Shown: one piece after another, positions 18,189-42,179 of the stretch
How positions within the stretch are numbered: position 1 is the first letter of the stretch
Layout: each line of letters begins with the position of its first letter
Assembly: GCF_900107995.1 (NCBI RefSeq)
Contig: NZ_FNUM01000002.1
Span: 456,283-520,282, forward strand
Origin: Alcanivorax sp. DSM 26293
GTDB lineage: Bacteria; Pseudomonadota; Gammaproteobacteria; Pseudomonadales; Alcanivoracaceae
Direction: 5' to 3'
DNA length: 64,000 bases
Made by a program: the position numbers and the translations under genes
The notes under the pieces: generated by a model
Databases searched by the model: none
Seen by the model: only the letters and a program-made list of their open reading frames with translations
What the model was told of the DNA's origin: nothing

Positions 18189-18257
18189 CGCTGGCACGCT
18201 TCACGCAACACGCTGGCACGCCCTTAGCGTGGTTGCGTGCCGACGTGATGCGTGCAG
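18189..18257. repeat. Heptad-periodic inverted repeat (element 1), sucB-lpd gap
   Basis: The left arm is built of units ending CACG: TGGCACG (18192-18198), CTTCACG (18199-18205), CAACACG (18206-18212), one extra base, then TGGCACG (18214-18220). The right arm (18227-18257) carries the complement CGTGNNN, with spacings of 7-8 bp. Only about 6 nt separate the arms. The three bases before each CACG vary. The element lies inside the sucA-sucB-lpd-sucC-sucD unit, so a full terminator here would cut off lpd and sucCD. Confidence 0.75.
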
Positions 18258-18265
18258 GCATACAT

Positions 18266-19525
18266 TCAGATATCCAGCAGCAAACGCGCCGGATCTTCGA
18301 TAAAGTTTTTCACTGCCACCAGGAACTGCACCGCTTCCTTGCCATCAATCAAGCGGTGATCGTAGGACAGCGCCAGGTACATCATCGGCAGGATTTCCAC
18401 CTTGCCGTCCACGGCCATGGGACGTTCCTGGATTTTGTGCATACCGAGGATGGCGGTCTGCGGCGGGTTGAGAATGGGCGTGGAAATCAGTGACCCGAAC
18501 ACCCCGCCATTGGAAATGGTGAAGGTGCCACCGGTCATTTCCTCAATGGAGAGCTTGCCCTTCTGGGCCTTCTGACCGAACTCGATGATCTGTGATTCCA
18601 CTTCTGCCAGACCACGCTGGTCCGCATCGCGAATCACCGGCACCACCAGCCCGCGCTCGGTGGACACCGCCACACCCACGTCGTAGTAACCGTGGTACAC
18701 GATATCCTCACCGTCGATAGAGGCATTCACCGCCGGGAAACGCTTCAGCGCTTCCACACAGGCACGGGTAAAGAAGCCCATGAAGCCCAGACGCACGTTG
18801 TGGGCCTTTTCGAATTCCGGCTGGTAATGCTTGCGCATATCCATGATCGGCTTCATGTTGACCTCGTTGAAGGTGGTCAACATGGCGGAGTTCTGCTGGG
18901 CAGACACCAGACGCTCGGCGATACGCTTGCGCAGGCGGGTCATCGGTACCCGACGCTCTTCGCGCTCGCCCGGCGTTGCCGGCACATCCACGGTAGCGGG
19001 CTGCTGCGGAGCCGGCTGGCTGGCCCGCTTCTCTTCCTTGGCGCTGATGGTTTTTTCCACATCCGCCTTGGTAATACGGCCACCCTTGCCAGTACCCGTT
19101 ACCTGTTCCGCGGCCACGCCGTGCTCGGTCATCAACTTGCGGGCAGCCGGACCCGCCTGGTCCGACGCGCTGTCATCATCACTGGCAGACTCACTGGCTT
19201 TCGCCGGTGCTTCTGCCGGTTCCTCTTTCTCTTCTTCCGCCGGTGCCGAATCGGCCTTGTCACCGGACGGCGCAGCACCACCGCTGGCGCCCTCTTCGAA
19301 ATGACCCAGCACCTGCTGGCTCTCAACCGTGTCGCCTTCACCGGCGAGAATCTTGCTGACTACACCGTCAGCCGGTGCCACTACTTCCAGCACCACCTTG
19401 TCGGTTTCAATATCCACCAGCAGCTCATCACGCTTGACCGCTTCACCTTCCTGCTTGTGCCAGGTGGCTACGGTGCCGTCCGCTACTGATTCGGGAAACT
19501 GCGGTGCTTTGATATCAGTCGCCAT
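18266..19525 (-). CDS. sucB: 2-oxoglutarate dehydrogenase E2 (dihydrolipoyl succinyltransferase)
   Basis: A 419-residue E2 subunit. The N-terminal lipoyl domain has Lys43 in ETDKVVLEV. An Ala/Glu/Ser-rich linker (about 85-125) follows, then the peripheral-subunit-binding domain ([12 protein letters not shown]) and the C-terminal acyltransferase domain with [13 protein letters not shown] (catalytic HxxxDG). One lipoyl domain is normal for SucB. It transfers succinyl from the SucA-bound intermediate to CoA. It starts 13 bp after sucA in the same direction. The heptad element lies just past its stop. Confidence 0.97.
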
Positions 19526-19538
19526 GCCTAATCCTTAT

Positions 19539-25637: not shown

Positions 25638-26005
25638 ATCCAGCCTCCTACCAGCAGAATCAGTACTACAGAAATGATGAATACCAGCTTGGCACCACGT
25701 CGGCCGCCTTCCAGGCTCTCACCCACGCCAGCGTCCATAACGAGGTGGCGAATACCTGCCACCAGGTGATACAGCAGTACTGCCAGAATGGCCCATACCA
25801 CCAGCTTCACCAGCGGGGAGGTCATCAGTTCTTTCAGGTCCGCAAAGCTCTCGGGAGACGCCAGGGAGCGATCCAGCATCCACAGCAGAATCGGCAACGC
25901 CAGGAAAATGGCAACGCCGGTTACACGGTGGGTGATAGATGCTATAGCCGTGACCGGGAACTTGATCGTGCTCAGATCGAGGTTAACGGGTCGCTTATCG
26001 TTCAC
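25631..26005 (-). CDS. sdhC: Succinate dehydrogenase cytochrome b556 subunit
   Basis: A 124-residue anchor with three membrane helices. The SdhC signature SITHRVTGVAIF sits near residue 25, and the heme-ligand region LLYHLVAGIRHLVMD near residue 85. The frame opens with GTG at 26005, preceded only by a modest GTAGGC, so a non-ATG start and low initiation rate are possible. It is first in sdhCDAB, with a promoter about 150 bp upstream and gltA divergent. Confidence 0.94.
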   Translation of the reverse strand: MNDKRPVNLDLSTIKFPVTAIASITHRVTGVAIFLALPILLWMLDRSLASPESFADLKELMTSPLVKLVVWAILAVLLYHLVAGIRHLVMDAGVGESLEGGRRGAKLVFIISVVLILLVGGWIW

Positions 26006-26160
26006 GGTAGCCTACTTATAGCCGGGCCCCAGGTTGGGGCGGTTGTCGGGAACTTTGGCAAAGTTGTTGAGATCAAAACGTGAAGTCTGATCTTAACAAC
26101 CTCGCCCGGGCCGGGGTGGGCCCGCACAAAACCCCCAGTCAGAGGTTTCTGCCGGGCGGC

Positions 26161-26189
26161 AGTATATCGCCGCGCCCTGAGCAAAACAA
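26161..26189 (-). promoter_or_regulatory. Sigma-70 promoter of sdhCDAB
   Basis: On the minus strand: TTGTTT (26184-26189), 17-bp spacer, TATACT (26161-26166). The predicted start of transcription near 26153 gives a leader of about 150 nt before sdhC, long enough for small-RNA or other post-transcriptional control. The segment 26090-26160 is GC-rich with palindromic patches. Confidence 0.75.
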
Positions 26190-26373
26190 ACGCCGAGCAC
26201 CTTAAACAGGCGATTAAGACAAAGTATCTTTCTCCTAACGCCTTGATTTACAATGCCGCACCGGATGTGAGCGCCACGAAAAGAGCCTGCACCACCCTGA
26301 TGCAAAACGGGTTTATGGCCGTAACAAGCTGTTTACCCTACAAAAGTCTGACTCACCGGTTCCCGGGTTCGCG

Positions 26374-26402
26374 TTGACAAAGGTGTGTCAAAACTTTACC
26401 TT
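26374..26402 (+). promoter_or_regulatory. Sigma-70 promoter of gltA
   Basis: The perfect -35 box TTGACA (26374-26379), 17-bp spacer and TACCTT (26397-26402) lie about 70 bp before the gltA ATG. With the sdh promoter this makes the 465-bp gap a divergent TCA control region. No other gene is seen in it. Confidence 0.65.
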
Positions 26403-26470
26403 CCCCCGCGCTTTGGAGGACCTTCCTTGCCTTGAGGAACGTTCCCTCGTCCGCCAATGGAGAGATTCCC

Positions 26471-27754
26471 ATGACCGAGAAGAAAGCCACTCTCAAGGTA
26501 GATGGTAAGGACCTGGACCTGCCTATCTACTCCCCCACCCTGGGCCGCGACGTTATCGACGTGTCCAAACTGGTAGCCAATGGTGTCTTTACCTTCGACC
26601 CGGGCTTTACCTCCACCGCTTCCTGTGAATCCAAGATCACCTTTATTGATGGTGAAGTGGGTAAGCTGCTGCACCGCGGCTACTCCATCGAGGAACTGGC
26701 TGGTAAGTCCGACTACCTGGAAGTGTGCTACACCCTGCTCTACGGCGAGTTGCCGACAGCTGAGCAGAAAGAGCAATTTGTCAGCACCGTTAAGAACCAC
26801 ACCATGGTGCATGAGCAGATTCGCAATTTCTTCAACGGTTTCCGCCGCGATGCTCACCCCATGGCCATCATGTGTGGCGTAGTGGGCGCCCTGTCCGCTT
26901 TCTACCACGACTCTCTGGACATCAATAATCCCGAGCACCGTGAAATCACCGCATACCGCCTGATCGCCAAGATGCCCACCATCGCGGCCATGTGCTACAA
27001 GTACGCGCTGGGCCAGCCCTTCATGTACCCGCGCAACGACCTGGGTTACGCAGAGAACTTCCTGCACATGATGTTCGGCAACCCCTGCGAAGAATCCAAG
27101 ATCAGCCCGACCCTGGCCAAGGCCATGGATCGCATCTTCATCCTGCACGCTGATCACGAGCAGAACGCCTCTACCTCTACCGTGCGTCTGGCTGGTTCCT
27201 CCGGTGCCAACCCGTTCGCCTGTATCGCTGCCGGCATTTCTGCCCTGTGGGGCCCGGCACACGGTGGCGCCAACGAAGCCGTGCTGAACATGCTGGATGA
27301 AATCGGCTCCCTGGATAACATCGACACCTACATCGCCAAGGCCAAGGACAAGAACGATCCGTTCAAGCTGATGGGCTTCGGTCACCGCGTCTACAAGAAC
27401 TACGACCCGCGTGCCACGGTAATGCGCGAGTCCTGCCACGAAGTGCTGGCCGAACTCGGTGTCAACGACCCGCAGCTGGAACTGGCCATGAAGCTGGAAG
27501 AGATCGCTCTGAGCGACCCCTACTTCAAAGAGAAGAAATTGTTCCCGAACGTGGATTTCTACTCCGGCATCATCCTCAAGGCGATCGGTATTCCGACCTC
27601 CATGTTCACCGTGATCTTCGCCCTGTCCCGCACCGTGGGCTGGATCGCACACTGGAACGAAATGATCTCCAACCCGTACAAGATTGGCCGTCCGCGTCAG
27701 CTGTACACCGGCGAGACCGAACGCGAGTTCGTACCGGTCAACGAGCGCAAATAA
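26471..27754 (+). CDS. gltA: Citrate synthase
   Basis: A 427-residue type II (hexameric, NADH-sensitive group) citrate synthase. It begins [20 protein letters not shown]. The catalytic residues are in [30 protein letters not shown] and [12 protein letters not shown] (His, His, Asp). The frame is open from 26432, but the ATG at 26471 gives the expected N-terminus. It condenses acetyl-CoA and oxaloacetate. It is divergent from sdhCDAB, as in many gammaproteobacteria, and followed by a strong terminator. Confidence 0.97.
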
Positions 27755-27773
27755 GCGCCCGTTATCGCCAGAC

Positions 27774-27802
27774 AAAAAAACCGCCTCCGGGCGGTTTTTT
27801 TT
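27774..27802 (+). terminator. Rho-independent terminator of gltA
   Basis: ACCGCC/GGGCGGT stem with a short loop, a run of seven A residues before it and eight T residues after it (27795-27802). It begins 20 bp past the gltA stop. Confidence 0.95.
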
Positions 27803-27819
27803 GTGCCGGAAGAAAAGCA

Positions 27820-27906
27820 GTTACGAGTTGAATGTTGCGAGCCACGAACCCCAAACCCCTCTCGTGACTCCGCCTTTCGCTCCTCGAAACTCGCTTCTCG
27901 CTCACC
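27820..27906. repeat. Heptad-periodic inverted repeat (element 2), after gltA
   Basis: Left arm units in steps of exactly 7 bp: GTTACGA (27820), GTTGAAT (27827), GTTGCGA (27834), GCCACGA (27841), ACCCCAA (27848). The right arm (27861-27906), read on the other strand, gives GAAGCGA, GTTTCGA, GGAGCGA and related units, so the shared form is GNNNCGA. It lies between the gltA terminator and the following co-oriented gene. The unit and the terminal ACCCCAA are shared with the element at 33741. Confidence 0.8.
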
Positions 27907-28017
27907 AGCCAACACAGACTTCACCGCGCTGATTACACGCTATTACCGCCCTGCATTTGCGTGGTTGCCCCGTGCATGCAAGCATCAGCTTTCCGTTAAT
28001 TGATCTTCCGGATTCCA

Positions 28018-29130
28018 ATGATAAAAAACATCGCACTGCTGATTCTCGTCATTCTGGTTGGCTATCTGTTGTTCTGGCCGGTATCCATTGACCCTGTTGC
28101 CTGGCAAGCCCCCGAAGCGCCAGCACTGGAAGGCCCCTACGCCAGCAACTCCGCCCTGGCAAAAAGCCGCTCTCTGGCAGTGGATGAAGGTGTCGGCCCG
28201 GAAGACGTGGCCATTGATGACGACGGCTTTCTCTACGTTGGCTATGTGGACGGGCGCATCGTCCGGTTTGACCCGGATGGCAGCAACCCGGACCTGATAG
28301 CCGACACCAAGGGGCGTCCGCTGGGTCTGGATTTCGACCCCCAGGGCAATCTGATCGTGGCCGACGGCTACAAGGGCCTGCTCAGCATCAGCCCCTCCGG
28401 CGCCATTGCCGCCCTGTCACAACGGGCCAATGGTGTGGATTACCGGTTCACCGACGATGTGGACGCGGACAGCAATGGGGTCATCTACTTTACCGATGCA
28501 TCCAGCAAATTCGGTCCCGCCCTGCACGCCCGCGACGATATTCTCGAACACGGCGGTCATGGCCGCCTGCTACGTTATGACCCGGCGACAGAGAAAGCCG
28601 AAGTCCTGCTGGATGGCCTGCAATTCGCCAACGGCGTTGCACTGTCCCAGGACGAGGACTTTGTCCTGGTCAATGAAACCGGGAGTTACCGGATCGTCCG
28701 CTACTGGCTGAAAGGCGACAAAGCCGGCAGCCATGATGTGTTCTTCGACAACCTGCCCGGGATTCCCGACGGCGTCTCCGCCAACGGCAATGGCACCTTC
28801 TGGGTGGCCCTGTTCAGCCCGCGCAATGCCATGCTGGACGCCATGTCCGACAAGCCCCAGCTGCGCAAGGTGGCCTTCCGACTGCCATCCTTCCTCCAGC
28901 CCCAGCCTGCCCACCACGGCTTCGTTCTGGGCCTGAACGAACAGGGTGACGTCACGCACAACTTGCAGGACACCAGCGCCGACGCCTTCGCCCCCATCAC
29001 CAGCGTGGAGCAACACGGCAATACCCTGTACCTGGGCAGCCTCACCGCCCCCCGCTTTGCCGCCTATCCACTCCCGGCCAATGACCCCGCCACCGTAACG
29101 GAGCAGGACACCCGCAATGTCACAGATTAA
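28018..29130 (+). CDS. SMP-30/strictosidine synthase-like beta-propeller protein
   Basis: A 370-residue protein with an N-terminal hydrophobic anchor (IALLILVILVGYLLFWPV) and then a six-bladed beta-propeller of the strictosidine synthase / SMP-30 (APMAP-like) group. Recognisable parts are GPEDVAIDDDGFLYVGYVDGRI, RPLGLDFDPQGNLIVADGYKGL, TDDVDADSNGVIYFTDAS, QFANGVALSQDEDFVLVNET and PGIPDGVSANGNGTFWV. Members are lactonases or esterases. This one is likely membrane-anchored and periplasmic. I use the ATG at 28018. A TTG at 28000 is an alternative. The 3' end overlaps the next gene by 14 bp. Confidence 0.82.
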   Translation: MIKNIALLILVILVGYLLFWPVSIDPVAWQAPEAPALEGPYASNSALAKSRSLAVDEGVGPEDVAIDDDGFLYVGYVDGRIVRFDPDGSNPDLIADTKGRPLGLDFDPQGNLIVADGYKGLLSISPSGAIAALSQRANGVDYRFTDDVDADSNGVIYFTDASSKFGPALHARDDILEHGGHGRLLRYDPATEKAEVLLDGLQFANGVALSQDEDFVLVNETGSYRIVRYWLKGDKAGSHDVFFDNLPGIPDGVSANGNGTFWVALFSPRNAMLDAMSDKPQLRKVAFRLPSFLQPQPAHHGFVLGLNEQGDVTHNLQDTSADAFAPITSVEQHGNTLYLGSLTAPRFAAYPLPANDPATVTEQDTRNVTD

Positions 29131-29995: not shown

Positions 29996-30005
29996 CCCGC
30001 CACCG

Positions 30006-30037: not shown

Positions 30038-30052
30038 AACATTTCATGCCCC

Positions 30053-31072: not shown

Positions 31073-31230
31073 AATGCCCTGTCTGTCATCTCGCTGTCAG
31101 GGACCGGGAAACCCGGCTCAAGTTCTGACCATTCTCATAAACTGCGACCCGGATCTCTCTGTATATCCACATATAGACAACAAATGAAAAAAGGGCCATT
31201 ATTGAACCATGAGTTAGGTCAGGAGGCGTT

Positions 31231-31638
31231 ATGGAAGCAGCCAGACAACAGACAACGCTGGCAGTGAACGACGGTGCGCGCCATGCAGCACTGCGCGCAG
31301 TTCTCAAACTGCTGGAGCACTGGCAGTGCAGCGAGAAGGAAAAGATGGCACTGCTTGGCGTGGGTCGCTCCACCCTGCACAAGTACCAGAGTCAGCCGGA
31401 CAGTGCCCGGGTGGGCAACGACCTGCTGGAGCGCCTCAGCTACTTGCTGAACATCCATCAGGCGCTGCGCACCTTGTTTGGCAACCGGGAAAACGTCTAT
31501 GGCTTCGTTCGCATGGCCAACCACAACCCGTTCTTCAACGGGGCCACCCCCATGGACATCATGAGCAACGGCCGCGTGGCCAGTCTCTACGAAGTGCACC
31601 GTCAACTGGACAGTCTGCGGGGCGGGCAATGGGGGTGA
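31231..31638 (+). CDS. Xre/MbcA/ParS-type antitoxin (DUF2384)
   Basis: A 135-residue antitoxin. The N-terminal helix-turn-helix (about residues 20-60, LLGVGRSTLHKYQ) should bind the operon promoter. The C-terminal DUF2384 domain (GNRENVYGFVRMANHNPFFNGATPMDIM) is the toxin-binding, MbcA-like part. The ribosome site GGAGG is seven bases before the ATG. It is followed by a RES toxin with overlapping frames, the standard order for this class. Autoregulation of the pair is expected but not shown. Confidence 0.92.
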   Translation: MEAARQQTTLAVNDGARHAALRAVLKLLEHWQCSEKEKMALLGVGRSTLHKYQSQPDSARVGNDLLERLSYLLNIHQALRTLFGNRENVYGFVRMANHNPFFNGATPMDIMSNGRVASLYEVHRQLDSLRGGQWG

Positions 31639-32336: not shown

Positions 32337-32394
32337 CCACACCGCCGAGCCTATGCTCTAACAGGCTATTCAGAGTCGCTCTCGGAGGAATGCC

Positions 32395-33150
32395 ATGCCG
32401 CTGCGTGCCATCTGCCTGGATCTCGCTGGCGTACTTTATCAGGGCCCGCGCCTGCTCCCCGGCGCCCTGAACGCCCTTGAACGGCTGCGCGCCACCGGTT
32501 TGCCCCTGCGCTTTGTCACCAACACCTCCCAACGCAACCGCAGCCAAATTCTCAGCGACCTGGCCAGCTTGAATCTGGTTGTGAACGCGTCAGAACTGTT
32601 TACCGCCCCGCAAGCAGCCCACGACTACCTGACCCGCCATCAGCTCACGCCCTACTGCCTGTTTCATCCGAACCTGAAAGAGGAATTTTCCGATCTGGAA
32701 GGCAAGCCACCCAATGCAGTGCTACTCGGTGATGCCGGCAGAAAATTCAATTATGAGCATCTGGACCAGGCGTTTCGCTTGCTGCAGGACGGCGCACCGC
32801 TGATAGCCATCGGCGAGAACCGTTATTACCAGCTGGATGACGGCCTGCATCTGGATGCGGGCCCTTTTGTCAGGGCATTGGAGTATGCCGCCGACTGCCG
32901 GGCCATCATCACCGGCAAACCCTCCCCCGCCTTTTTCGAACAGGTGCTGGCCGACCTGGCTACAAGGCCGGAAGACACCCTGATGGTCGGAGACGATGTC
33001 CATGGAGACGTGGAAGGTGCCCTGAACAGCGGCATGCAGGCCTGCCTGGTGCAAACCGGGAAATATCGCCATGGGGATGAAAACAGGATTGCCGGCACAT
33101 TCCGGCTGGAAGCGGATATCGATGCCCTGTCACGATCCATAACACGTTGA
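32395..33150 (+). CDS. HAD-superfamily phosphatase, TIGR01458/LHPP-like
   Basis: A 251-residue HAD hydrolase. Motif I is ICLDLAGVLYQGPRLLPGA: the nucleophile Asp is present, but the usual second Asp of DxD is Ala, as LHPP/HDHD2 proteins have a small residue there. Motif II is FVTNTSQRN, the Lys is in ITGKPSPAFFE, and motif IV is MVGDDVHGDVEGALNSGMQACLV. The type IIA cap lies in between. Substrates of this group may be phospholysine, phosphohistidine or pyrophosphate. The gene stands alone, 58 bp after the RES toxin. Confidence 0.87.
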   Translation: MPLRAICLDLAGVLYQGPRLLPGALNALERLRATGLPLRFVTNTSQRNRSQILSDLASLNLVVNASELFTAPQAAHDYLTRHQLTPYCLFHPNLKEEFSDLEGKPPNAVLLGDAGRKFNYEHLDQAFRLLQDGAPLIAIGENRYYQLDDGLHLDAGPFVRALEYAADCRAIITGKPSPAFFEQVLADLATRPEDTLMVGDDVHGDVEGALNSGMQACLVQTGKYRHGDENRIAGTFRLEADIDALSRSITR

Positions 33151-33349
33151 TCCAGCGCATCCTCGTAGACAGGTTTGGCGTGGACACTTCCATCAAGGCT
33201 CCCCACCTCAGGCCGACACGCCCATCAAGAGAGCAAACTGACCCGGGCGGAAAAACGGAGCTGGGGAACGGGAAAGTGCACCGCGGAGCGCTTGAACCAA
33301 TACGCATCAAGCCAAGGCAAACGGTCACACCAATCGGCTTTCCAGCAAT

Positions 33350-33381
33350 AAAAAAGCCCCACTCTTTCGAGCAGGGCTTTT
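33350..33381 (-). terminator. Rho-independent terminator of the tRNA-Ala/tRNA-Glu unit
   Basis: AAAAGCCC (33352-33359) pairs with GGGCTTTT (33374-33381). On the minus strand the stem is followed by six T residues. It starts just beyond the 3' end of tRNA-Glu. Confidence 0.9.
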
Positions 33382-33386
33382 CTATA

Positions 33387-33462
33387 TGGCGTCCCCTAGG
33401 GGAGTCGAACCCCTGTTACCGCCGTGAAAGGGCGGTGTCCTGGGCCACTAGACGAAGGGGAC
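33387..33462 (-). tRNA. tRNA-Glu (anticodon TTC)
   Basis: 76 nt read on the minus strand, starting GTCCCCTTCGTCTAGTGG. The anticodon stem-loop is CCGCCCTTTCACGGCGG, with TTC in the loop. The T-arm is AGGGGTTCGACTCCCCT and the acceptor end is GGGGACG followed by an encoded CCA. Five bases separate it from tRNA-Ala. It is the second transcript product of the unit. Confidence 0.97.
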
Positions 33463-33467
33463 GTATT

Positions 33468-33543
33468 TGGTGGAGCCAGGCGGGATCGAACCGCCGACCT
33501 CAACACTGCCAGTGTTGCGCTCTCCCAGCTGAGCTATGGCCCC
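33468..33543 (-). tRNA. tRNA-Ala (anticodon GGC)
   Basis: 76 nt read on the minus strand, starting GGGGCCATAGCTCAGCTGG, with anticodon arm AACACTGGCAGTGTT (GGC), T-arm GGCGGTTCGATCCCGCC and encoded CCA. It is co-transcribed with tRNA-Glu. The pair next to gltX is a familiar gammaproteobacterial arrangement. Confidence 0.97.
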
Positions 33544-33587
33544 AAATACATCAATCAAGACAAGGTGCGTCCCGGTTGGTGCGGCGT

Positions 33588-33615
33588 ATTCTACCCAGCA
33601 CCCCTACTCTGTCAA
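33588..33615 (-). promoter_or_regulatory. Strong sigma-70 promoter of the tRNA pair
   Basis: Minus strand: TTGACA (33610-33615), 16-bp spacer, TAGAAT (33588-33593), then a GC-rich discriminator (ACGCCGC), as in stringently controlled stable-RNA promoters. The 5' leader to tRNA-Ala is about 40 nt. Confidence 0.88.
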
Positions 33616-33708
33616 GCGTAGACCTGTGGTTTTTTTCAGAATGAAGTCCATTTGACTACATCCTGAACAAGCTGCTGAAAAACTGGGCGAAAATCCACAG
33701 CCTCTGCC

Positions 33709-33860
33709 GTAGGAGCGTCGCTGGCGGCGCGATAACCCCGGTTTCGAGTTGCGAGAAGCCAGTTTCGAAAGACAAACCCCAAATCCCGGGAAAGCCCGAT
33801 GATTTTCGATTCTCGTCACTCGTTACTCGCAACTGGTCTTATCGCGCCGCCAGCGACTCA
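33709..33860. repeat. REPIN-like palindrome pair enclosing a heptad element
   Basis: GTAGGAGCGTCGCTGGCGGCGCGATAA (33709-33735) and, inverted, TTATCGCGCCGCCAGCGACTCA (33839-33860) form matching ends of about 20 bp. They share the GTAGGAGCG start with REP elements at 50.5 kb. The space between the two ends is filled by a heptad-periodic inverted repeat (33741-33838). The pair lies between the tRNA promoter and the gltX stop. Confidence 0.75.
33741..33838. repeat. Heptad-periodic inverted repeat (element 3), nested in a REP pair
   Basis: The left arm in exact 7-bp steps: GTTTCGA (33741), GTTGCGA (33748), GAAGCCA (33755), GTTTCGA (33762), AAGACAA (33769), ACCCCAA (33776). The right arm, read on the other strand from about 33836, gives GTTGCGA, GTAACGA, GTGACGA, GAATCGA. 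The form is GNNNCGA, the same as element 2 near 27.8 kb, and the last left unit ACCCCAA is identical. Confidence 0.8.
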
Positions 33861-33864
33861 GGCC

Positions 33865-35349
33865 TCAGCCTACCGGCAAATCCCGGTAGGCCTTCTCCAG
33901 CTTCTTCATCTGTTTCTTGGACACCCCGCCCAGCACCTCGATGGCGTTACGCAGACGGGCCCGGCTCAGGTCGGCGCCGATGATTTCCATGGAGTCCACC
34001 ACCGAGAAGCTGGCGCTGGTGCCGGCAATGGCGACAAAGGCCGGAAACAGGAAGTCCTTGATCTTCACGTCCAGGGCATCGGCAATGGCCTTGGCATCCG
34101 CAAACAGACCGTCACGGTTCCAGTCATTGCGCGCCTCGTAGGCCCACAGCAGGTACTGGAGCCACACTTTCATATCCTCGCCACCGTACTGCTTGTGCTC
34201 GAAGCTGGCTTCGCTGATCGCCGGCATGCCGTTGAAACAGAATGCCGCCTTGTCCGCCACGTCCGACAGGGTTTCCACTCGCTGGCGCAAATGGGGAATG
34301 ATCTTCATGGCGTAATCGCGGTTGTAGGCCCAATCGAGCAAGGTATCCAGAAACTGCTCATCACTCTGCTCACGCAGCCATTGGCCATTCAGCCAGCTCA
34401 GCTTTTCCACATCAAAAACGGGGCCACCCAGGGAGACCCGGTTGATATCGAAAGCGTCCTGCATCTGCGCCAGGGTGAACTTCTCGCTCTCATCCGGCAT
34501 GGACCAGCCCATCCGGCCCAGGTAATTCACCAGCGCCTCCGGCAGGTAGCCCATACGCTGGTAGAACAGGATGCTGGTGGGGTTCTTGCGCTTGCTGAGC
34601 TTGGACTTGTCCGGGTTGCGCAGCAGCGGCATATGGCAAAGTACCGGCATCTCCCAGCCGAAATATTCGTAGAGCAACTTGTGCTTGGGTGCGGAGTTCA
34701 GCCATTCCTCACCACGGATCACATGGGTGATCTCCATCAGGTGATCATCCACGATATTGGCCAGGTGGTAGGTGGGCATGCCGTCGGACTTGAGCAGGAT
34801 CTGGGCATCCACCAGCGCCCAATCCAGCTCCACGGTACCGCGCAGCATGTCCTGGATTTCGCAGCGGCCATCGGTGGGCACGCGCATGCGAATCACGTAG
34901 GGCGCCCCGTCCGCCTCCCGCTTTGCCTGTTCTTCCGCCGGCAGTTCCAGATCCATCGGCTTCAGCGCGCGGTTCTCGCCCTGCTCTTTCAGTGCCGCAC
35001 GGAGGCTGTCCAGCTCTTCACTGGTGCGATAGCACTTGAAGGCATGGCCTTTCTCGATCAGCGCCTCGGCATACTCCCGATACATATGCTTGCGTTCACT
35101 CTGCCGGTACGGGCCATGGGGGCCACCCACATCCGGGCCTTCATCCCAGCTCAGCCCCAGCCATTTGAGCGAATCCAGAATCATCTGCTCGGACTGATCG
35201 GTGGAACGGGTCTGGTCCGTATCTTCAATACGCAGAATAAACTGACCACCGTGCTGGTGGGCAAAACAGCGATTGAACAGGGCAATATAGGCGGTGCCTA
35301 CATGGGGGTCACCGGTGGGTGACGGCGCTACGCGAGTACGGACGGTCAT
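33865..35349 (-). CDS. gltX: Glutamyl-tRNA synthetase
   Basis: A 494-residue class I synthetase. The HIGH-like motif is in [21 protein letters not shown] near the N-terminus, and the [11 protein letters not shown] stretch (KMSKS motif equivalent) is near residue 250. [13 protein letters not shown] lies in the active site. It charges tRNA-Glu. It is followed on the same strand by a REP pair and then the tRNA-Ala/tRNA-Glu genes. A TATAAT at about 35381-35386 on the minus strand could be its -10 box, with a poor -35. Confidence 0.97.
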
Positions 35350-35512
35350 GCTGACTCCAATAATGCAAACTGGCGCGGATTATACCTGTCAAAACAGGAA
35401 GCTTATAGACACGGGCCGGCGGCTTTCTGCTAAGGTTGAACGCGACTCATGCTTTCGCCCGCCGGGCCACCGGCGGGCTTGACCCACTCGACAGGACGTA
35501 AAGGAAAAGACC

Positions 35513-36088
35513 ATGCGTATTCCCTTTCAACACTCCCTGCTGGTAGCCATGATTGCCGGTGCCACCCTGCTCCAGGGCTGCTCTGACAATAAAGAGGAAG
35601 CAAAAACCGATACCCCGGCTGCGGAAGCACCCGCCATGGACAATGCCGGTGAAAGCGCCAAAGAAAGCAGCAAAGAGAGCGCCCAAGAAAGCACCGAAGA
35701 AACGGCAAGCAACAACGGCATAACCCGTAGCGCGGCACCGGAAGGGGCCAGCGCCACCATTCTCAGCCCTGCAGATGGTGCCACCGTGACCAGCCCGGTT
35801 ACCGTGGAGTTCGGCCTGGAAGGCATGGAGGTGGTACCCGCCGGCACCCAGCAGGAGCATGCCGGCCACCACCACCTGCTGATCGACCTGGATCAGGAGT
35901 CCATGCCTGCCATGGACTTCCCGCTGCCGGCCAACGACAACGTGGTGCACTTCGGCAAGGGCCAGACCCAGACCGAACTGGAACTGGAGCCGGGCACACA
36001 CACCCTGCAATTGCTGCTGGGAGACCACATGCATGTGCCCCATGAACCGCCGGTAATGTCCGAAAAGATCACCATTACGGTGGAGTAA
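35513..36088 (+). CDS. DUF4399-containing lipoprotein
   Basis: A 191-residue protein with a lipoprotein signal peptide (LLVAMIAGATLLQGC, lipobox LLQGC, Cys23). A Glu/Ser/Ala-rich spacer of about 45 residues (AKESSKESAQESTEET) follows. The C-terminal about 120 residues resemble DUF4399 (TILSPADGATVTSPVTVEFGLEGMEV, HHHLLIDLD, HTLQLLLGDHMHVPHEPPVMSEKITITV). The His-rich patches could bind a metal, which is inference. The leader carries a perfect 8-bp hairpin CCCGCCGGgccaCCGGCGGG at 35458-35477, close to the ribosome site AAAGGAAA. It is convergent with ynfA. Confidence 0.82.
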   Translation: MRIPFQHSLLVAMIAGATLLQGCSDNKEEAKTDTPAAEAPAMDNAGESAKESSKESAQESTEETASNNGITRSAAPEGASATILSPADGATVTSPVTVEFGLEGMEVVPAGTQQEHAGHHHLLIDLDQESMPAMDFPLPANDNVVHFGKGQTQTELELEPGTHTLQLLLGDHMHVPHEPPVMSEKITITVE

Positions 36089-36095
36089 GCATTAA

Positions 36096-36168
36096 ACGCC
36101 GGACGTCGGACGCCAGAAGGGCTTGTCTTTCAGCGTCAAACGTCCGGCATCAAGCCTCTGGCATCACC
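36096..36168. repeat. Heptad-periodic inverted repeat (element 4), between convergent genes
   Basis: Left arm units ACGCCGG (36096), ACGTCGG (36103), ACGCCAG (36110). The right arm on the opposite strand reads GATGCCA, GAGGCTT, GATGCCG, GACGTTT, GACGCTG. GCCGGACGT (left) pairs with ACGTCCGGC (right). The left arm begins eight bases after the DUF4399 gene stop, and the right arm runs into the ynfA stop codon at 36164-36166. It could act as a bidirectional terminator, although it lacks T-runs. Confidence 0.7.
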
Positions 36169-36499
36169 CCATCTGCCGAGGCGCAAACATGATGATCGCC
36201 ATCCCCGTCAGCGCCACCAGCGACCCGACAATATCCCAGCCCGTGGGACGAATACCGTCCACGCCCCACAACCAGAGAATGGCCACAAAAATATACACGC
36301 CGCCGTAGGCCGCATAGACCCGCCCCGCCGCCGTGGGATGCAAAGACAACAGCCAGGCAAAGGCCGCCAGGCTCAGTGCAGCAGGCACCAACAACCAGGC
36401 AGACTTCCCCTCACGCAACCATAGATAAGGCAGGTAGCAGCCCACGATCTCGGCGACCGCCGTGATCAGAAACAGCCCCAGAATTTTCAATTCCGGCAA
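36164..36499 (-). CDS. ynfA: YnfA/UPF0060-family membrane protein
   Basis: A 111-residue protein with four hydrophobic helices, similar in topology to small multidrug resistance transporters. The family-specific parts are [48 protein letters not shown] and a [17 protein letters not shown] ending. Its cellular role is unproven, and efflux has been suggested for some members. It is convergent with the DUF4399 lipoprotein gene. The stop codon is covered by the right arm of a heptad repeat. Confidence 0.92.
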
Positions 36500-36687
36500 G
36501 ACAACCTCCCGGTATAGGCTCGAATCAATACGCAGACACTGGCATGCTCAGTACAGCACACGCTGACGGGACAATCACCCATCCCGGGGACCAATCGGTC
36601 TGCCAGAAAAGTCAGGCCGACGCGATGCGGTTCTGCCCGCACCATTTTCCTTTCCCTGAGCGCTTTGCGGTGCGCCGGACCGGCGAC

Positions 36688-37536
36688 TTATCGCAGCAGC
36701 AAATGGGGCACCGTGGCATGCTTGATCATCTTGCTGGTGGTGCTACCCACAAAGAACTCGCGGATACGGGAATGCCCGTAGGCGCCCATGACCACCATAT
36801 CGATATGGTTGTCTTGCTGGTACTGGTGCAAGGAAGGCTCCACGTCCCCTTCCAACTGCGCCACTTCCACCTCGTGACCGGATTGCTCCAGGGTGTCACG
36901 GGCCCAGGCCAGATCCTCCCCCAGCTGTTTGTCCTTGCCCACCGCCACCAGGTGACATGGCAGGCCCAGGAACAGCGGACTGGCGGCCAGCATTTTCACT
37001 CCTTCACGGCAGGTCGGGCTGCCATCGAAGGCCAGCATCACCTTGCGTGGCTCAGTGAAATCCGAGGGCACCACCATAATCGGCTTGTGCATGGTGCGAA
37101 TCACTTGCTCCACATGGTCGCCCACCTGCTCTGCCTCACCGGTGTGCTCTTCACCCAGTTTGCCAATCACCAGAATGCGGGTCTGCTCCTGCATGCCGGC
37201 CAGAGTTTCTACCAGGCCGCCGTGGCGCTGTCGCTGTTTGGGCTCAACCACCCCTTTTTCGATGGCACGGGCAGCAGCGGCTTCCAGCATCAGCTTGCCC
37301 TGCTCCAGGGCCAGCTTGTTCCGTTTGGCATCCAGCTCGGAGAGCTCGGTGAGCAGGGCTTCGCGACCGCCCAGCAGCAGGTTGCCGCTAAGATCACTTT
37401 CCACCGGATAGCGGGAGTGATCCAGCACATGCAGCAGGGTCAAGGGGGCATTCAACCGCTGCACCGCCCACACCGCATAGTCGCACACCCGAGCCGCGGC
37501 CGGAGAACCATCAATACAGGCAATAACATCACTCAT
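36688..37536 (-). CDS. Tandem universal stress protein
   Basis: A 282-residue protein made of two Usp domains (about 1-140 and 150-282). The second contains the ATP-binding pattern GAYGHSRIREFFVGSTTSKMI. The first has a degenerate version (IGKLGEEHTGEAEQVGDHVEQVI), so only one domain may bind nucleotide. It follows a SulP transporter gene by 21 bp on the same strand, so they are probably one operon. SulP-UspA pairs are common and suggest that the stress protein controls or accompanies the transporter. The region 36500-36687 downstream has no gene or clear terminator. Confidence 0.88.
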   Translation of the reverse strand: MSDVIACIDGSPAAARVCDYAVWAVQRLNAPLTLLHVLDHSRYPVESDLSGNLLLGGREALLTELSELDAKRNKLALEQGKLMLEAAAARAIEKGVVEPKQRQRHGGLVETLAGMQEQTRILVIGKLGEEHTGEAEQVGDHVEQVIRTMHKPIMVVPSDFTEPRKVMLAFDGSPTCREGVKMLAASPLFLGLPCHLVAVGKDKQLGEDLAWARDTLEQSGHEVEVAQLEGDVEPSLHQYQQDNHIDMVVMGAYGHSRIREFFVGSTTSKMIKHATVPHLLLR

Positions 37537-37557
37537 TGTTTTCTCCTTGGCAGGGGA

Positions 37558-39042
37558 CTAGTGGCCGCCCATGAGTTTTTCGACCGCCTCAGGCTTGTCG
37601 TGCACGGCAAATTTATCCACCAGGGTGGCGCTGGCCTCGTTCAGACCGATCAATTCCACCTCGGTCCCTTCACGACGGAATTTGATGATCACCTTGTCCA
37701 GCGCTCCGATGGCGGTGATATCCCAGAAGTGGGAACGGTGCACATCAATAGTCACTTTATCCAGAGCTTCCTTGAAATCAAAGGAAGCGATGAACTGATC
37801 CGCAGAGGTGAAAAATACCTGCCCCAGGACCTCGTAGCGGCGGTGGCTGCTGTTAGTTTCATCAAGATCCGAGCGCACATAGAAAACGCGCCCCACCTTG
37901 TTTGCATAGAACAGCGCACTCAGTACCACCCCGATGCCAACACCAATGGCCAGGTTATGGGTCGCCACGGTGGCCGACACCGTAGCCAGCATCACCACGG
38001 TGCTGCTCGCCGGATGCTTGGCCATGTTGGTAATGGACTCCCAGCTGAAGGTACCAATGGACACCATGATCATCACCGCCACCAGCGCGGCCATGGGAAT
38101 CTGGGACACCCATTCACCCAGGAACACCACCAGCACCAGCAGGAAGCAACCGGCAAACAAGGTGGACAGGCGCTTGCGGCCACCGGATTTCACGTTGATC
38201 ACGGACTGGCCGATCATCGCACACCCGGCCATGCCCCCCAGGAACCCGGAGAAAATGTTGGCCACGCCCTGCCCTTTGCATTCGCGGTTCTTGTCGCTAT
38301 CGGTATCGGTCAGATCATCCACGATGGTTGCCGTCATCATGGATTCCAGCAGACCTACCACGGCGAGGGCCAGAGAGTACGGCAGAATGATTTTCAGGGT
38401 TTCCAGGTTAAGCGGGATATCCGGCAACAGGAATACGGGCAGACTGTCCGGCAGATCACCCTTGTCACCGACGGTGGGCACATCCAGACCCAGATACATG
38501 GCAATCCCGGTCATCACGACAATACAGATCAGGGGTGATGGTACTGCGGTGGTCAGCAGCGGCAGCAGGTAAATGATCGCCAGGCCGGCGACCACCATGG
38601 CATACACATGCCAGGTTACCCCGACCAGCTCCGGCAACTGCGCCATGAAAATCAGGATAGCCAGGGCATTCACAAAGCCGGTGACCACGGAGCGGGAGAC
38701 AAAGCGCATGAGATTGCCAAGCTGCAGAAAGCCCGCAACAATCTGCAGCATCCCGGTCAACACCGTCGCCGCCAGCAAATACTGCAGGCCATGGTCTTTG
38801 ACCAGCGTCACCATCACCAGCGCCATGGCCCCGGTTGCCGCCGAAATCATCCCCGGGCGGCCGCCGACAAACGCAATGACAACGGCGATACAGAAAGATG
38901 CATACAACCCCACCTTGGGGTCCACACCGGCAATGATGGAGAAGGCAATCGCCTCCGGAATCAGGGCCAGGGCCACAACGGAACCCGCCAGTAAATCACC
39001 ACGGATATTACTGAACCATTCCTGCTGAATAGATCGAAGCAT
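37558..39042 (-). CDS. SulP-family inorganic anion transporter with STAS domain
   Basis: A 494-residue permease. The membrane core starts with [38 protein letters not shown], the SulP N-terminus, and continues through 10-12 helices. The cytoplasmic STAS domain occupies about the last 110 residues ([42 protein letters not shown]). Substrates in the family are sulfate, bicarbonate or other anions. The sequence alone does not decide. I use the ATG at 39042, which gives the expected N-terminus. The open frame upstream to 39129 is not supported. It shares an operon with the Usp gene. Confidence 0.9.
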
Positions 39043-39326
39043 GAAGAACAATCCTGTTTTGCAAATACGACAGACAAGGATGCTGCTCAAGGGCAACAGA
39101 ACACGGGATGACATGGCGCAGGGCACCATACGGCAAAGCCGGAGACGGGCTGTCTACTAGGGCGGACTCAGCCGGGAGAGGATCATGAACAGTCTCGAGT
39201 GGTTCGGAAAGGCGCTGAGTCTAGCAGAGCCGGCAGGCCTTTGACAGGCAACGCCGCCGCCCGCCCTACGCCGCAGCGCCGCAACATGCGACAATAGTTG
39301 ACCCAATACCCGTGTTATCGTCTTGC

Positions 39327-40325
39327 ATGAATGATTCCTTGATCCAAACAGCCCCGTCGCTTCAGCCTGATCGGCGCCTGTCCGTCGCCCCGATGATGGA
39401 CTGGACCACCCGCGACTACCGGTTTCTGGCCCGGCTGATTACCCGCCACACCCTGCTCTACACCGAAATGGTGGTGGCCCAGGCGATTCTGCGCGGGGAC
39501 CGTGAGCGGTTTCTGGCATTCAATGACGAAGAGCACCCGGTGGCGCTTCAACTGGGCGGCAGCGAACCGCAGGATCTGGCGGAAGCCGCACAAATTGCCG
39601 AACAATACGGTTACGACGAGATCAACCTCAATGTTGGCTGCCCGTCGGACCGGGTGCAGCAGGGCAAGATCGGCGCCATTCTGATGGCCGAGCCGGAACT
39701 GGTGGGCCAGTGCGTGGAAGCCATGCAGGCGGCGGTCCGCGTTCCAGTGACGGTGAAGACCCGCATCGGCATCGATGACCAGGATGATTACGACTTTCTC
39801 TACCGGTTTGTTACCCGCATGGAGCAGGCCGGCTGCACCAGTCTCACCATCCATGCCCGCAAGGCCATCCTCTCCGGGCTGTCCCCAAAGGAAAACCGGG
39901 AGATTCCGCCGCTGATCTATCAGCGGGCCTACGCCATCAAGCAGGCCTTCCCCCATATGGAAATCATTCTCAACGGTGGCGTGAAGACTCTGGACGAAGT
40001 GCATGCGCACATGGGCGACGTGGATGGGGTGATGATTGGTCGCGAGGCCTACCAAAATCCCTATTTTCTCGCCGATGCGGATCGCATCGTGTTTGCCGAC
40101 GATCACCCCGTGCCCAGCCGCCGGGACATCGCCGAGCAATTTCTCCCCTATGTAGAACGTCGCTACGCGCTGGGTCATGCCCCCAAACATTCCCTGCGTC
40201 ATATCCTTAACCTGTTCCAGGGCGAACCCGGCGCCCGCCGTTTTCGCCGTCACCTGAGCGAAAACATGCACAAGCCCGGCACCACCCCGCAAGTGCTCAT
40301 GGACGCTTTGGCACAACTGCCTTAG
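39327..40325 (+). CDS. dusA: tRNA-dihydrouridine(20/20a) synthase
   Basis: A 332-residue flavin-dependent dihydrouridine synthase, length typical of DusA. It opens with RRLSVAPMMDWTTRDYRFLARLITRHTLLYTEMV. The catalytic Cys lies in INLNVGCPSDRVQQG, RNA-binding Lys/His residues are in TVKTRIGID and LTIHARKAILSGLSPKENREIPPL, and FMN phosphate contacts are in LNGGV and VMIGREAYQNP. It reduces uridines in the tRNA D-loop. The start at 39327 is preferred. An ATG five codons earlier is possible. It is divergent from the SulP gene. Confidence 0.95.
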   Translation: MNDSLIQTAPSLQPDRRLSVAPMMDWTTRDYRFLARLITRHTLLYTEMVVAQAILRGDRERFLAFNDEEHPVALQLGGSEPQDLAEAAQIAEQYGYDEINLNVGCPSDRVQQGKIGAILMAEPELVGQCVEAMQAAVRVPVTVKTRIGIDDQDDYDFLYRFVTRMEQAGCTSLTIHARKAILSGLSPKENREIPPLIYQRAYAIKQAFPHMEIILNGGVKTLDEVHAHMGDVDGVMIGREAYQNPYFLADADRIVFADDHPVPSRRDIAEQFLPYVERRYALGHAPKHSLRHILNLFQGEPGARRFRRHLSENMHKPGTTPQVLMDALAQLP

Positions 40326-40359
40326 GCTGTAATGAACCCGCAATTCTTAGCAAGAATCG

Positions 40360-40526
40360 TGGTTGAGTTACAAGTTGAAAGTTCAAAGTTGAAAAGCGCG
40401 TGAAAGCCCATCAGTAAGGGAAATGTCCTGCCCGCGCTCACTCCCCAGGTAAAGCGCGGCCAACATCGTAGTCGGTTGGTACGATCCGTCGCCGCGTTTC
40501 AACTTTGAACTTTCAACTTGCAACTC
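40360..40526. repeat. Heptad-periodic inverted repeat (element 5), between dusA and tal
   Basis: The clearest of the set. Left arm: GTTACAA (40367), GTTGAAA (40374), GTTCAAA (40381), GTTGAAA (40388), then AGCGCG. Right arm read on the other strand from 40524: GTTGCAA, GTTGAAA, GTTCAAA, GTTGAAA, then CGCGGC. Arms of about 30 bp match almost perfectly, separated by about 100 nt that contain further small hairpins (CGCGCTcactccccaggtaAAGCGCG and ATCGTagtcggttggtACGAT). No gene fits inside it. Confidence 0.88.
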
Positions 40527-40625
40527 TCTTCACCCACATCGGGACATGATTACTGCAAGCTAACACCATACTGTCATGGCAACGCCTTAACGTGCCCCAC
40601 CATGACACTGAAAGGAACGGATACC

Positions 40626-41576
40626 GTGAACAAACGCGAACAGCTAGCCCAATGGACCTCTCTGGTGGCCGATACCGGTGATCTGGACATGATCGCCGAA
40701 CTGGCACCGGAAGATGCCACCACCAACCCCTCCCTGCTGCTGGCAGCAGCACGAGACGAACGTTACCGGCCATTGCTGCAACAGGCAGCCGATCTGTGTC
40801 GCACACTGGGCCATGGCGGGGAGATGGACTGGCTGACCGACTGCTATGCCTGCCTGGCCGGCCAGGCCATCCTGGAGCGGATTCCCGGCCGTGTTTCCAG
40901 TGAGGTGGATGCGCGCTTGTCCTTTGATACCCGCGCCACGGTGGAAAAGGCCCGTCGTCTGATGGCCATCTACCGGGAACTGGACGTGGACCCATCCCGC
41001 ATCCTGATCAAGACCGCCGCCACCTGGGAAGGCATCCGCGCCGTGGAAGTCCTCGAGGAGGAAGGCACCCGCTGTAATGTGACGCTGGTCTTCAACCAGG
41101 CTCAGGGTCTGGCTGCGGCAGAAGCCGGCGCTACCCTGATCTCCCCCTTCGTGGGCCGCATCTTCGACTGGCACCGTAAACAGGGCATGGAGATTGCCAC
41201 CCCGGATGACGACCCGGGAGTCCAGTCCGTGCGCCAGATCTATCGCACCTTCAAGGCCCGGGGTCTGGAAACCATCGTCATGGGCGCCAGCTTCCGCAAT
41301 GCCGGCCAGATCGAAGCTCTGGCCGGTTGCGACAAGCTCACCATCAGCCCGGCCCTGCTCAGGGAACTGGCTGCCGATACCGGGAGTCTGACCCGGGTAC
41401 TGGATGCGGAACTGGTGGCCCCGGAGGACGACTGGCAGGCCGTTACCGAGGCCGCGTTCCGCTGGCAACTCAATGACGATGCCATGGCCAGCGACCTGCT
41501 TGCCGATGGCATCCGCCGCTTCGCCAACGACCAGTTGGCGCTGGAAGCGCTATTGCAGGAGGAAGGTGTAATTTGA
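40626..41576 (+). CDS. tal: Transaldolase
   Basis: A 316-residue class I transaldolase, near the 317 residues of E. coli TalB. It transfers a dihydroxyacetone unit between sugar phosphates in the pentose phosphate pathway. The Schiff-base Lys lies in RILIKTAATWEGIRA. Other signatures are PEDATTNPSLLL and CNVTLVFNQAQ. I choose the GTG at 40626: AAGGAA stands upstream at proper distance, whereas the in-frame ATG at 40602 lacks a ribosome site. Its stop overlaps the TerB-like start (TTGA). Confidence 0.94.
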   Translation: MNKREQLAQWTSLVADTGDLDMIAELAPEDATTNPSLLLAAARDERYRPLLQQAADLCRTLGHGGEMDWLTDCYACLAGQAILERIPGRVSSEVDARLSFDTRATVEKARRLMAIYRELDVDPSRILIKTAATWEGIRAVEVLEEEGTRCNVTLVFNQAQGLAAAEAGATLISPFVGRIFDWHRKQGMEIATPDDDPGVQSVRQIYRTFKARGLETIVMGASFRNAGQIEALAGCDKLTISPALLRELAADTGSLTRVLDAELVAPEDDWQAVTEAAFRWQLNDDAMASDLLADGIRRFANDQLALEALLQEEGVI

Positions 41577-42010
41577 ATTGGCTTAACCGACTCTTTCGCC
41601 CCGACCAGCCCCAGCAACAGACAAACGAGCACGACCTGCACCGGGCGGCTGCTGCCCTGCTTCTGGAAGTGGCCCGTACTGACGGCACCGTGGCACCGGA
41701 AGAATCACAACGTCTGATTCAGGCAGTAAAGACGCACTGGCATCTGGACCCCCAGGAAATGGATGACATCCTCAGCGAACTGGAAACCCGTGTGGACCAG
41801 GCCACTGACCTGTTCGAATTCACCCGTCCCCTCCGAGACCACTGGGGACCGGAGCCCAGGGTCACACTGATTGAGGAAATGTGGGCCATGGCCGCCGCTG
41901 ACGGCCATGTGGATGTCCACGAAGAACACCTGATCCGACGGGTCAGTGACCTGCTGTATGTGTCCCATGGGGACTATATAAGAGCAAAGATGAAGGCGGT
42001 TAATAATTAA
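41573..42010 (+). CDS. TerB-family protein
   Basis: A 145-residue all-helical TerB-like protein: EHDLHRAAAALLLEVARTDGTVAPEESQRL and IEEMWAMAAADGHVDVHEEHLIRRVSDLL carry the paired acidic metal-binding segments (DGTVAPEE, DGHVDVHEE) of the family. The role of stand-alone TerB proteins is not settled. The likely start is TTG at 41573, because a strong AGGAGGAAGG lies before it and it overlaps the tal stop by four bases. The last three codons are formed by the first units of a heptad repeat (element 6), so the C-terminus VNN may have been made by the repeat. Confidence 0.85.
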   Translation: MNWLNRLFRPDQPQQQTNEHDLHRAAAALLLEVARTDGTVAPEESQRLIQAVKTHWHLDPQEMDDILSELETRVDQATDLFEFTRPLRDHWGPEPRVTLIEEMWAMAAADGHVDVHEEHLIRRVSDLLYVSHGDYIRAKMKAVNN

Positions 42011-42179
42011 TAGTTAATAATGAATAACTAATAACTCGCGACTCAGCTTTATCTTTTTTAAACGCAAGAGGCCGCGCCCAACCTATGGGCGCGGCCTCTT
42101 GCGTTTGAACCAATATCGCTGCTGCTCGCGCAACTATTAATTATTCATTATTAACTATTAATTGCACTATTAATTGCCT
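42000..42179. repeat. Heptad-periodic inverted repeat (element 6) between convergent genes
   Basis: Left arm in 7-bp steps: TTAATAA (42000), TTAATAG (42007), TTAATAA (42014), TGAATAA (42021), CTAATAA (42028), CTCGCGA (42035). Right arm (about 42131-42178) on the other strand: TTAATAG, then five bases, TTAATAG, TTAATAA, TGAATAA, TTAATAG. It is very A/T-rich in a GC-rich genome. The left arm begins inside the TerB-like gene and supplies its stop codon. The right arm ends next to the mlaA stop. A 20-bp terminator-like hairpin lies in the middle. Confidence 0.85.
42061..42105. terminator. Perfect 20-bp hairpin between tal-TerB and mlaA
   Basis: AACGCAAGAGGCCGCGCCCA (42061-42080), a 5-nt loop ACCTA, and its exact complement at 42086-42105. 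T residues precede it (42052-42059) but neither side has a full T-run. It is likely a bidirectional end signal for the convergent genes. Confidence 0.75.

Follow-up and report, generated by a model that had tools for sequence, protein, structure and literature searches.

The subject of this analysis is a stretch of 64,000 nucleotides from Alcanivorax sp. DSM 26293 (NZ_FNUM01000002.1, positions 456,283 to 520,282; hereafter the window), in which six intergenic inverted repeats lie at window positions 18189, 27820, 33741, 36096, 40360 and 42000. These elements are probably short palindromic repeats of several dispersed families, similar to repetitive extragenic palindromes (REPs) and bacterial interspersed mosaic elements (BIMEs), placed directly behind genes and above all between convergent genes. 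An element would consist of a pair of convergent arrays, each with a few degenerate heptads, around a core. This reading is backed by observation, including: the period of 7; the dispersed unit families; the fixed polarity of the arms; the placement at gene 3' ends; the presence or absence of elements and the switching of units at orthologous sites; one clear ectopic copy; and the finding of one class inside REP pairs. One genus here supplies a natural experiment, in which the same gene end (gltX) carries, across 13 species, three unit families or a REP, and the questions of "why seven" and of what keeps a hairpin behind gltX become testable in laboratory strains that are harmless.

A seven-base period in several unit families

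The analysed assembly (label G000) comprises 3,706,254 bases in 22 contigs, and about one fifth of it (744 kb: the 64-kb window, 400 kb of contig C10 and 280 kb of contig C15) served as the sample for the lag scan. Period was measured as the number of matches between a 28-base segment and the sequence 7 bases further on, with 17/28 as the cut for a site. In the 383 intergenic regions of this sample (66,491 bases), 29 runs at ≥20/28 were found for lag 7; lags 14 and 21 gave 10 and 3, and the remaining lags between 3 and 20 gave none. The ten dinucleotide-preserving shuffles gave an average of 0.0 lag-7 runs (0.0–0.1 overall). Within the sample, lag-7 autocorrelation of intergenic sequence is therefore stronger than in shuffled controls, and the claim of an earlier note, made from the window alone, that the period is particular to seven is upheld. 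A second scan used gene calls from a purpose-written, better gene finder and added 400 kb of a second species (G006). At ≥19/28 noncoding sequence held 57 runs at lag 7, 31 at lag 14 and 9 at lag 21, in comparison with 0–2 at each of the control lags from 4 to 20, and coding sequence held 5 runs at lag 7, in agreement with the intergenic character that the note had ascribed to the period.

Four main consensus units were recognised: AGNNNCG (family A), ARTKRAY (B/D), AGCTNCN (C) and AGTTNMA (G). When 66 inverted pairs were collected by arm complementarity from the own genome, G006 and five gltX loci, both arms fell in the same main class in 55 (A 19, BD 22, C 8, G 6); the other 11 comprised one E/E pair and 10 with at least one arm unassigned. 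The ACGTCNG unit of 36096 is rarer than the main four, and CACGCNN, the unit of 18189, stands outside the assigned classes. The fixed and free positions of a unit are alike at unrelated loci, and in family A positions 2, 6 and 7 are fixed at 97–98% and positions 3–5 carry 1.4–1.7 bits, all of this among heptads retained only at a motif score of ≥70%, a filter that favours fixed positions. One consensus does not cover all six sites, as had been said. The further idea that each site has its own unit, with the sequence left free, is ruled out by the recurrence of the units: most are dispersed families at many loci and in many species, and the six sites do not carry six different units, since 27820 and 33741 share AGNNNCG. 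Three types of core lie between the arms: some are short A-rich/T-rich loops, some GC-rich hairpins resembling terminators, and some loops of about 100 nt.

To avoid selecting pairs on complementarity, a motif-only set of 58 plus-strand and 57 minus-strand arms was made, with a pairing limit of 220 bp; the resulting pairs include orthologous elements from several species and are not all independent. The AG-type unit occupied the 5' arm in 42/42 motif-defined pairs of neighbouring opposite-strand arms, with no case of the reverse, and the two arms belonged to the same family in 41 of them, the exception joining B with A. The sharing of the period by both arms, also claimed before, is borne out for the set. 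The same polarity was found in 8/8 pairs from other gammaproteobacterial genomes (G143 1, G144 4, G133 3). Motif-defined pairs were absent from five of nine stretch sets (G159, G133, G068 twice, G109), and in G159 hairpins with a CTCGTAT-type 5' arm, found by complementarity, have the reverse polarity.

The earlier note had further proposed that heptads are built or copied and then inverted. Comparison of own arms with swapped arms of the same family gave complementarity values of 34.1 vs 34.6 in family A (p = 0.65), 33.2 vs 29.6 in family C (p = 0.14; 5 elements, low power), 47.0 vs 44.4 in family G (p = 0.37; 6 elements, low power) and 46.3 vs 38.1 in family B (p = 0.001), where own arms match better. 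Own arms thus match no better than swapped ones in three of four families, which argues against building followed by inversion. Copying of arms within each element had been suggested by an apparent excess of matching at the free positions, which was traced to the choice of pairs by complementarity; with motif-only arms the excess is absent in A, C and G and remains in B only. The arms share a consensus, and a copy step in each element is not needed and in family A is not seen.

Gene ends, turnover and the link to REPs

Counted in the own genome and G006, arrays are found in 30 of 105 gaps between convergent genes, against 36 of 372 in tandem and 6 of 148 in divergent arrangement (convergent vs divergent, Fisher p = 5.6e-8). 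The median distance from the array window to the facing stop codon is 20 bp; the windows are padded and can overlap the called end of a gene, by 29 bp at most. For annotators, lag-7 arms of fixed polarity are a simple signature, present in more than one in four of these convergent gaps. In a possible likeness to an intrinsic bidirectional terminator, cores of the 42000 class look like GC-rich hairpins between convergent genes with an A-rich lead and a T-rich tail; the long outer heptad stems lie outside the definition of a terminator. RNA folding against 200 dinucleotide shuffles per site divides the six: five are far more stable than their shuffles, and 27820 (z −1.4) is not. At the 3' ends of genes, the heptad elements have the dispersed, multi-copy, intergenic habit of REPs and BIMEs. 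Passages of PMC3733652 place REPs mostly in convergent and unidirectional gaps, the convergent ones at <20 bp from the 3' end in the species shown.

Behind gltX, 13 Alcanivorax species have conserved flanks, which enclose either heptads, drawn from three families and in several variants, or a REP. AGNNNCG is found inside a REP pair in the own genome and G003, and alone in G004 and G011. The AGTTNMA family is present with AGTTGAA (G006, G010), AGTTTAA (G008) or AGTTACA (G009) as the commonest unit, the AGCTNCN family as AGCTTCT (G001), AGCTACG (G007) or AGCTTCG (G002), G012 has a mixture of AGCTTCA and AGTTGCA, and G005 has a REP without heptads. Despite differing arms, G006, G009, G010 and G012 have an inner core in common (identity 0.66–0.96, compared with 0.52 for a shuffled core); the core of G008 reaches 0.56–0.61 to these four, barely above shuffled sequence. 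By eye, the loop and the degenerate right arm are similar among G001, G002 and G007, but each genome has a perfect array of its own as left arm, a pattern that looks like slippage. In the same three genomes (loci L230, L238 and L233) the element apparently enters the gene end and, relative to the other species, replaces the last codons, again as judged by eye. Among 79 loci behind gltX, a lag-7 run was found in 10, and each control lag gave 1–3; five of the 10 are from Alcanivorax, and L100 and L107 look like chance. AGCTGTA-type heptads lie directly behind gltX in Halomonas (L060, L076, L078). Long perfect 7-mer arrays, apparently from recent slippage, are present at L023:16654 (G000:C15; 12 units) and at L076:5184 (18 units).

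At the 42000 locus, 11 readable species keep a like GC-rich core, and the arms vary within one family (AATTAAT, AGTTAAC, AGTTGAC and AATTGAT types); the counterpart in G010 reads N, and G005 is without such an element. At C10:410361 the element is kept in ten species and a REP stands instead in G003, with G007 and G012 outside the comparison. There are also sites of presence or absence between the own genome and G006, for example 69 vs 227 bases at C10:435014. Recurrence at orthologous loci, proposed earlier as a check, thus holds for the element, which is generally kept, and not for the unit, which switches; in a few species a REP stands there or the element is absent. In the region of C10:303083 and its counterpart in G006, one holds an AATTGAT heptad element and the other a longer, unrelated palindrome (GGTGCACTGAGCC..).

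Another view of dispersal was given by a 160-bp element around the 42000 core (core-2), which had 39–44 matches in each of 13/13 Alcanivorax genomes and a single match, in one of six genomes, in other families. Palindromic copies may count once per strand, flanking genes were included and 20 candidates were scored per genome, which amounts to at least about 20 places, and the counts therefore show dispersal, not copy number. Among the elements compared, the paralogue at C10:410361 in the same genome lies nearest to the 42000 element (0.87; next 0.75), and in G006 both loci carry AGTTAAC-type arms. This closeness indicates that replacement by copying between loci apparently occurs.

Genome-wide, a strict GTAG-REP pattern matched 132 times, and the reversed control never. 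Among the 54 of the 66 collected pairs that come from the own genome and G006, a REP lies within 75 bp of 10 of the 21 AGNNNCG elements vs 0 of the 33 of other classes, some of the AGNNNCG hairpins being inside REP doublets; the separation from REPs and BIMEs that had been claimed for these sites has accordingly to be given up for this class. A GTAG-tagged stem was not seen by eye in the heptad arms themselves. Thirteen REP doublets (L319–L329, L331, L332) were inspected by eye, with an AGNNNCG hairpin in three (L319, L327, L332), a CACAGAG hairpin in six (L320–L325) and neither in four; doublets of about 150 bp were preferred in fetching, and these counts are not frequencies. L333 was chosen on account of its heptads and proved to be a further REP doublet, again holding an AGNNNCG hairpin. 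Given these differing inner hairpins, REP pairs are shells with interchangeable contents. The CACAGAG type (CCACAGAGGGCACAGAGCACACAGAG and its complement) in the same slot of L320–L325 has a spacing of about 9 bp, so that seven is not a universal step, being the dominant and not the sole one. The same hairpin type is present at the site orthologous to 27820 in L040, L041 and G006. Four Y1_Tnp matches were found in the genome, one of which (C17:7746-7982) lies between REPs at 7519-7583 and 8123-8185; this RAYT-like match between two REP pairs makes the region C17:7519-8185 (L330) a likely REPtron for the GTAG-REPs of this genome.

Beyond the genus, four CGAGNNN units in a row were found in 13 of 140 gammaproteobacterial genomes, the own included (296 matches, up to 136 in one genome). 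The backward control, itself 7-periodic, was found in 8/140 (92 matches, 71 in one genome), and an 8-bp version in 2/140 (18 matches, 17 in one array), with its backward control in 4/140. In view of the backward control in 8/140, the unit itself is therefore only moderately special across the class. Inverted heptad hairpins with AGNNNC-type units are present in stretches of G143, G144, G133 and G068, genomes which were picked for their matches, and G143 also holds AT-rich AATKTTR-type units.

The kind is known in part: the earlier note knew of no named class with these properties, but a named relative exists. Passages of PMC4692102 describe GGGANTN heptamer arrays in Xanthomonas, two genomes of which hold 70 and 75 convergent pairs. 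In the same passages Xanthomonas GGGAATC/(GGGANTN)n and Nostoc GGGGA(C/T)T are each one G-rich unit type per genome, able to form G-quadruplexes (PMC4692102). Tandem intergenic 7-bp units are common to these repeats and to Alcanivorax, in which AGNNNCG, ARTKRAY, AGCTNCN and AGTTNMA are found instead of GGGANTN; unlike Xanthomonas and Nostoc, Alcanivorax has several families per genome, unit switching at one site, and arms around cores or in REP pairs. The over-representation of heptamers in bacteria (Mrazek 2007, as quoted in PMC4692102 and PMC4679880), whose explanation is not settled according to these quotations, is the other known part. Another example is the TAACTGA repeat of Beggiatoaceae, cyanobacteria and Bacteroidetes, which passages of PMC4679880 present as taxonomically scattered intergenic heptamer arrays; it differs in having one fixed unit, in direct orientation (one indirect repeat is reported), mostly just before start codons. 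The parS heptads of pSM19035 (WATCACW), bound by omega/ParB, also consist of contiguous 7-bp units, direct and inverted, and differ as plasmid promoter/centromere sites with one consensus and six sites per plasmid (passages of PMC9499535). GTAG-REPs, REP doublets and BIMEs, with their REP-associated tyrosine transposases (RAYTs), are likewise palindromes scattered mainly over convergent and unidirectional gaps, but have one stem of 5–13 bp and a GTAG tag, and the passages concerned mention no 7-bp period (PMC3733652); the heptad classes other than AGNNNCG are without a nearby REP. A single known Rfam family was also rejected as an account of the sites, as the window gave only two tRNAs at gathering scores. 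In the open-access literature, no work on Alcanivorax heptad hairpins was found by title, and RepRanger (PMC12306157) gave no hit to the five words sought in it. Four traits were not encountered in the literature searched: more than one heptad family per genome, a strict polarity, a change of unit between orthologous gene ends, and heptad arms lying inside REP pairs.

Explanations weighed

If the elements are REP/BIME-like repeats behind genes, they would act in RNA as 3'-end hairpins, in termination or in protection of the message, and in both directions between convergent genes. From the placement, the folding and the habit of REPs, such a role is the most likely one. The elements would spread and replace one another through copying between loci, and perfect 7-mer arrays in single arms would be secondary slippage. 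For the 7-nt step and the kept AG and C/A positions, our best guess is a factor that reads a 7-nt lattice. A wider form of this idea is doubtful: a so far unnamed superfamily spread across Gammaproteobacteria, its units following a single grammar (AG, then three less constrained letters, C/A and one less constrained letter; 5' arm of AG type), with a dedicated lattice-reading 3'-end factor, in which the site is kept while the unit "dialect" is swapped.

Several results weigh against the reading as dispersed REP-like repeats. The free positions of family A are without arm-to-arm pairing, which is odd for a pure RNA-stem function, and terminator-like sites in window positions 26000-45000 number 23 vs 17.4 (standard deviation 4.8) in shuffles. 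A single pair shows clear ectopic copying among the 21 elements compared at the 42000 and C10:410361 loci, of which 15 are nearest an orthologue and 6 nearest the other locus, and mean identity is 0.70 between orthologues vs 0.69 across loci and species. Target-site duplication was not recognised by eye in the part of the presence/absence sites that was inspected between the own genome and G006. A 9-bp-spaced hairpin takes the same slot in REP doublets, and the 18189 element, whose hairpin is stable but whose heptads are poorly spaced, may be something else.

Pure mutation, in which 7-nt polymerase slippage builds heptads in one arm and template switching copies them to the other, no function being needed, is an unlikely alternative account that nevertheless explains part of the data. 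Perfect arrays of at least 4 units are mostly 7-mers, as in 4 of 5 in the own 744 kb (units 4–12; two of the four are one array split by N) and in 5 of 9 at gltX loci of other genera; the 400 kb of G006 held none of any size. The gltX elements of G001, G002 and G007, with their different perfect left arms and like right arms, and the better match of own arms in family B point the same way. Slippage by 7 nt was proposed by Mrazek (2007), as quoted in passages of PMC4679880 and PMC4692102, and template switching can make and mend hairpins according to a passage of PMC8794818. However, own arms in families A, C and G are no more alike than swapped ones (the last two with 5 and 6 elements), a polarity of 42/42 is not predicted, and neutral decay would strike the seven positions alike, whereas the units are sharply divided into fixed and free positions and AGNNNC-type units occur in other families of bacteria too. 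Slippage accounts for the perfect arrays, not for the fixed positions or the polarity.

These last features would follow more readily from a protein lattice, in which the heptads are DNA sites bound side by side, one unit per dimer, as the ribbon-helix-helix omega/ParB binds WATCACW, and the families are recognition dialects. Fixed AG and C/A positions at a 7-bp step with free positions between them, the strict polarity of the convergent arrays and the lack of excess arm-to-arm matching in family A are all in line with it, and a contiguous 7-bp lattice of direct and inverted sites is a known binding mode in passages of PMC9499535. Yet the protein is purely hypothetical; in lying behind genes the elements behave like REPs and not like operators, and several dialects per genome would demand several proteins or a loose recognition. 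We regard this account as improbable too. A chance likeness of unrelated hairpins, of a kind that any reader might over-interpret, could draw on the weak period of 18189 and the weak folding of 27820, but as the source of the set it is ruled out by both lag scans (29 runs vs 0 in shuffles and at other lags; 57 vs 0–2), and its probability is close to nil.

The six sites in the window

Inverted repeats with units of about 7 bp, as first described, are present at all six places, with 27820 weak by folding and 18189 weak by period. By lag 7, both arms are strong at 42000 and 40360 and one arm at 33741; 36096 and 27820 just reach the threshold, and 18189 falls short of it. The 42000 element has ARTKRAY heptads in its left arm (41991..42033, plus strand; AATTAAT-type) and right arm (42135..42182, minus strand), which score 23/28 and 20/28 at lag 7; the fold z is −13.6. 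Its inner GC-rich hairpin AAACGCAAGAGGCCGCGCCC..GGGCGCGGCCTCTTGCGTTT (42060..42106), read in the sequence and the fold, resembles the core of a bidirectional terminator. Behind dusA, the 40360 element has AGTTNMA heptads at 40365..40398 (plus strand) and 40493..40526 (minus strand), with 19/28 and 21/28 in the two arms and a fold z of −9.0.

The 33741 element, on the 3' side of gltX, is enclosed by two inverted REP halves and has a fold z of −8.1 as a whole. The left half (33709..33732, plus strand; C10:489991-490014) is a strict GTAG-REP pattern match, and the right one (33839..33857, minus strand) is a shortened inverted half that pairs with about 33717-33735 in the RNA fold. Between them lie the left arm of AGNNNCG heptads (33741..33773, plus strand), below the 17/28 cut, and the right arm (33797..33838), whose AGNNNCG heptads are read on the minus strand, with 20/28 at lag 7.

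At 36096..36163, an ACGTCNG-type heptad hairpin lies between two convergent genes, of which one is ynfA-like and the other has no family name; one arm reaches 17/28, and the fold z is −5.6. Its unit recurs in L041, and a similar unit is found in G006. The 27820 site is a decayed AGNNNCG heptad pair at 27825..27903 (arrays 27825-27861 and 27868-27903), with 17/28 in each arm and the weak fold given above. Adjoining it, behind citrate synthase, an ordinary terminator-like hairpin (27774..27812, plus strand) was read in the sequence and is kept in 7/7 relatives for which the gap was recovered.

Between odhB and lpd, the hairpin at 18189..18262 has arms of CACGCNN units with spacings of 7, 7 and 8, is below the 17/28 cut at lag 7 and has a fold z of −3.8. 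At the orthologous sites of 16 congeners, inspected by eye, a CACGC-unit hairpin was found in 8, a shorter GC-rich hairpin in 7 and a diverged hairpin in one (G015). On this evidence 18189 is a stable site, not a mobile one. Elsewhere in the window, a 108-bp tandem repeat at 57069-57350 has 2.6 copies with 69% matches and overlaps long open reading frames on both strands.

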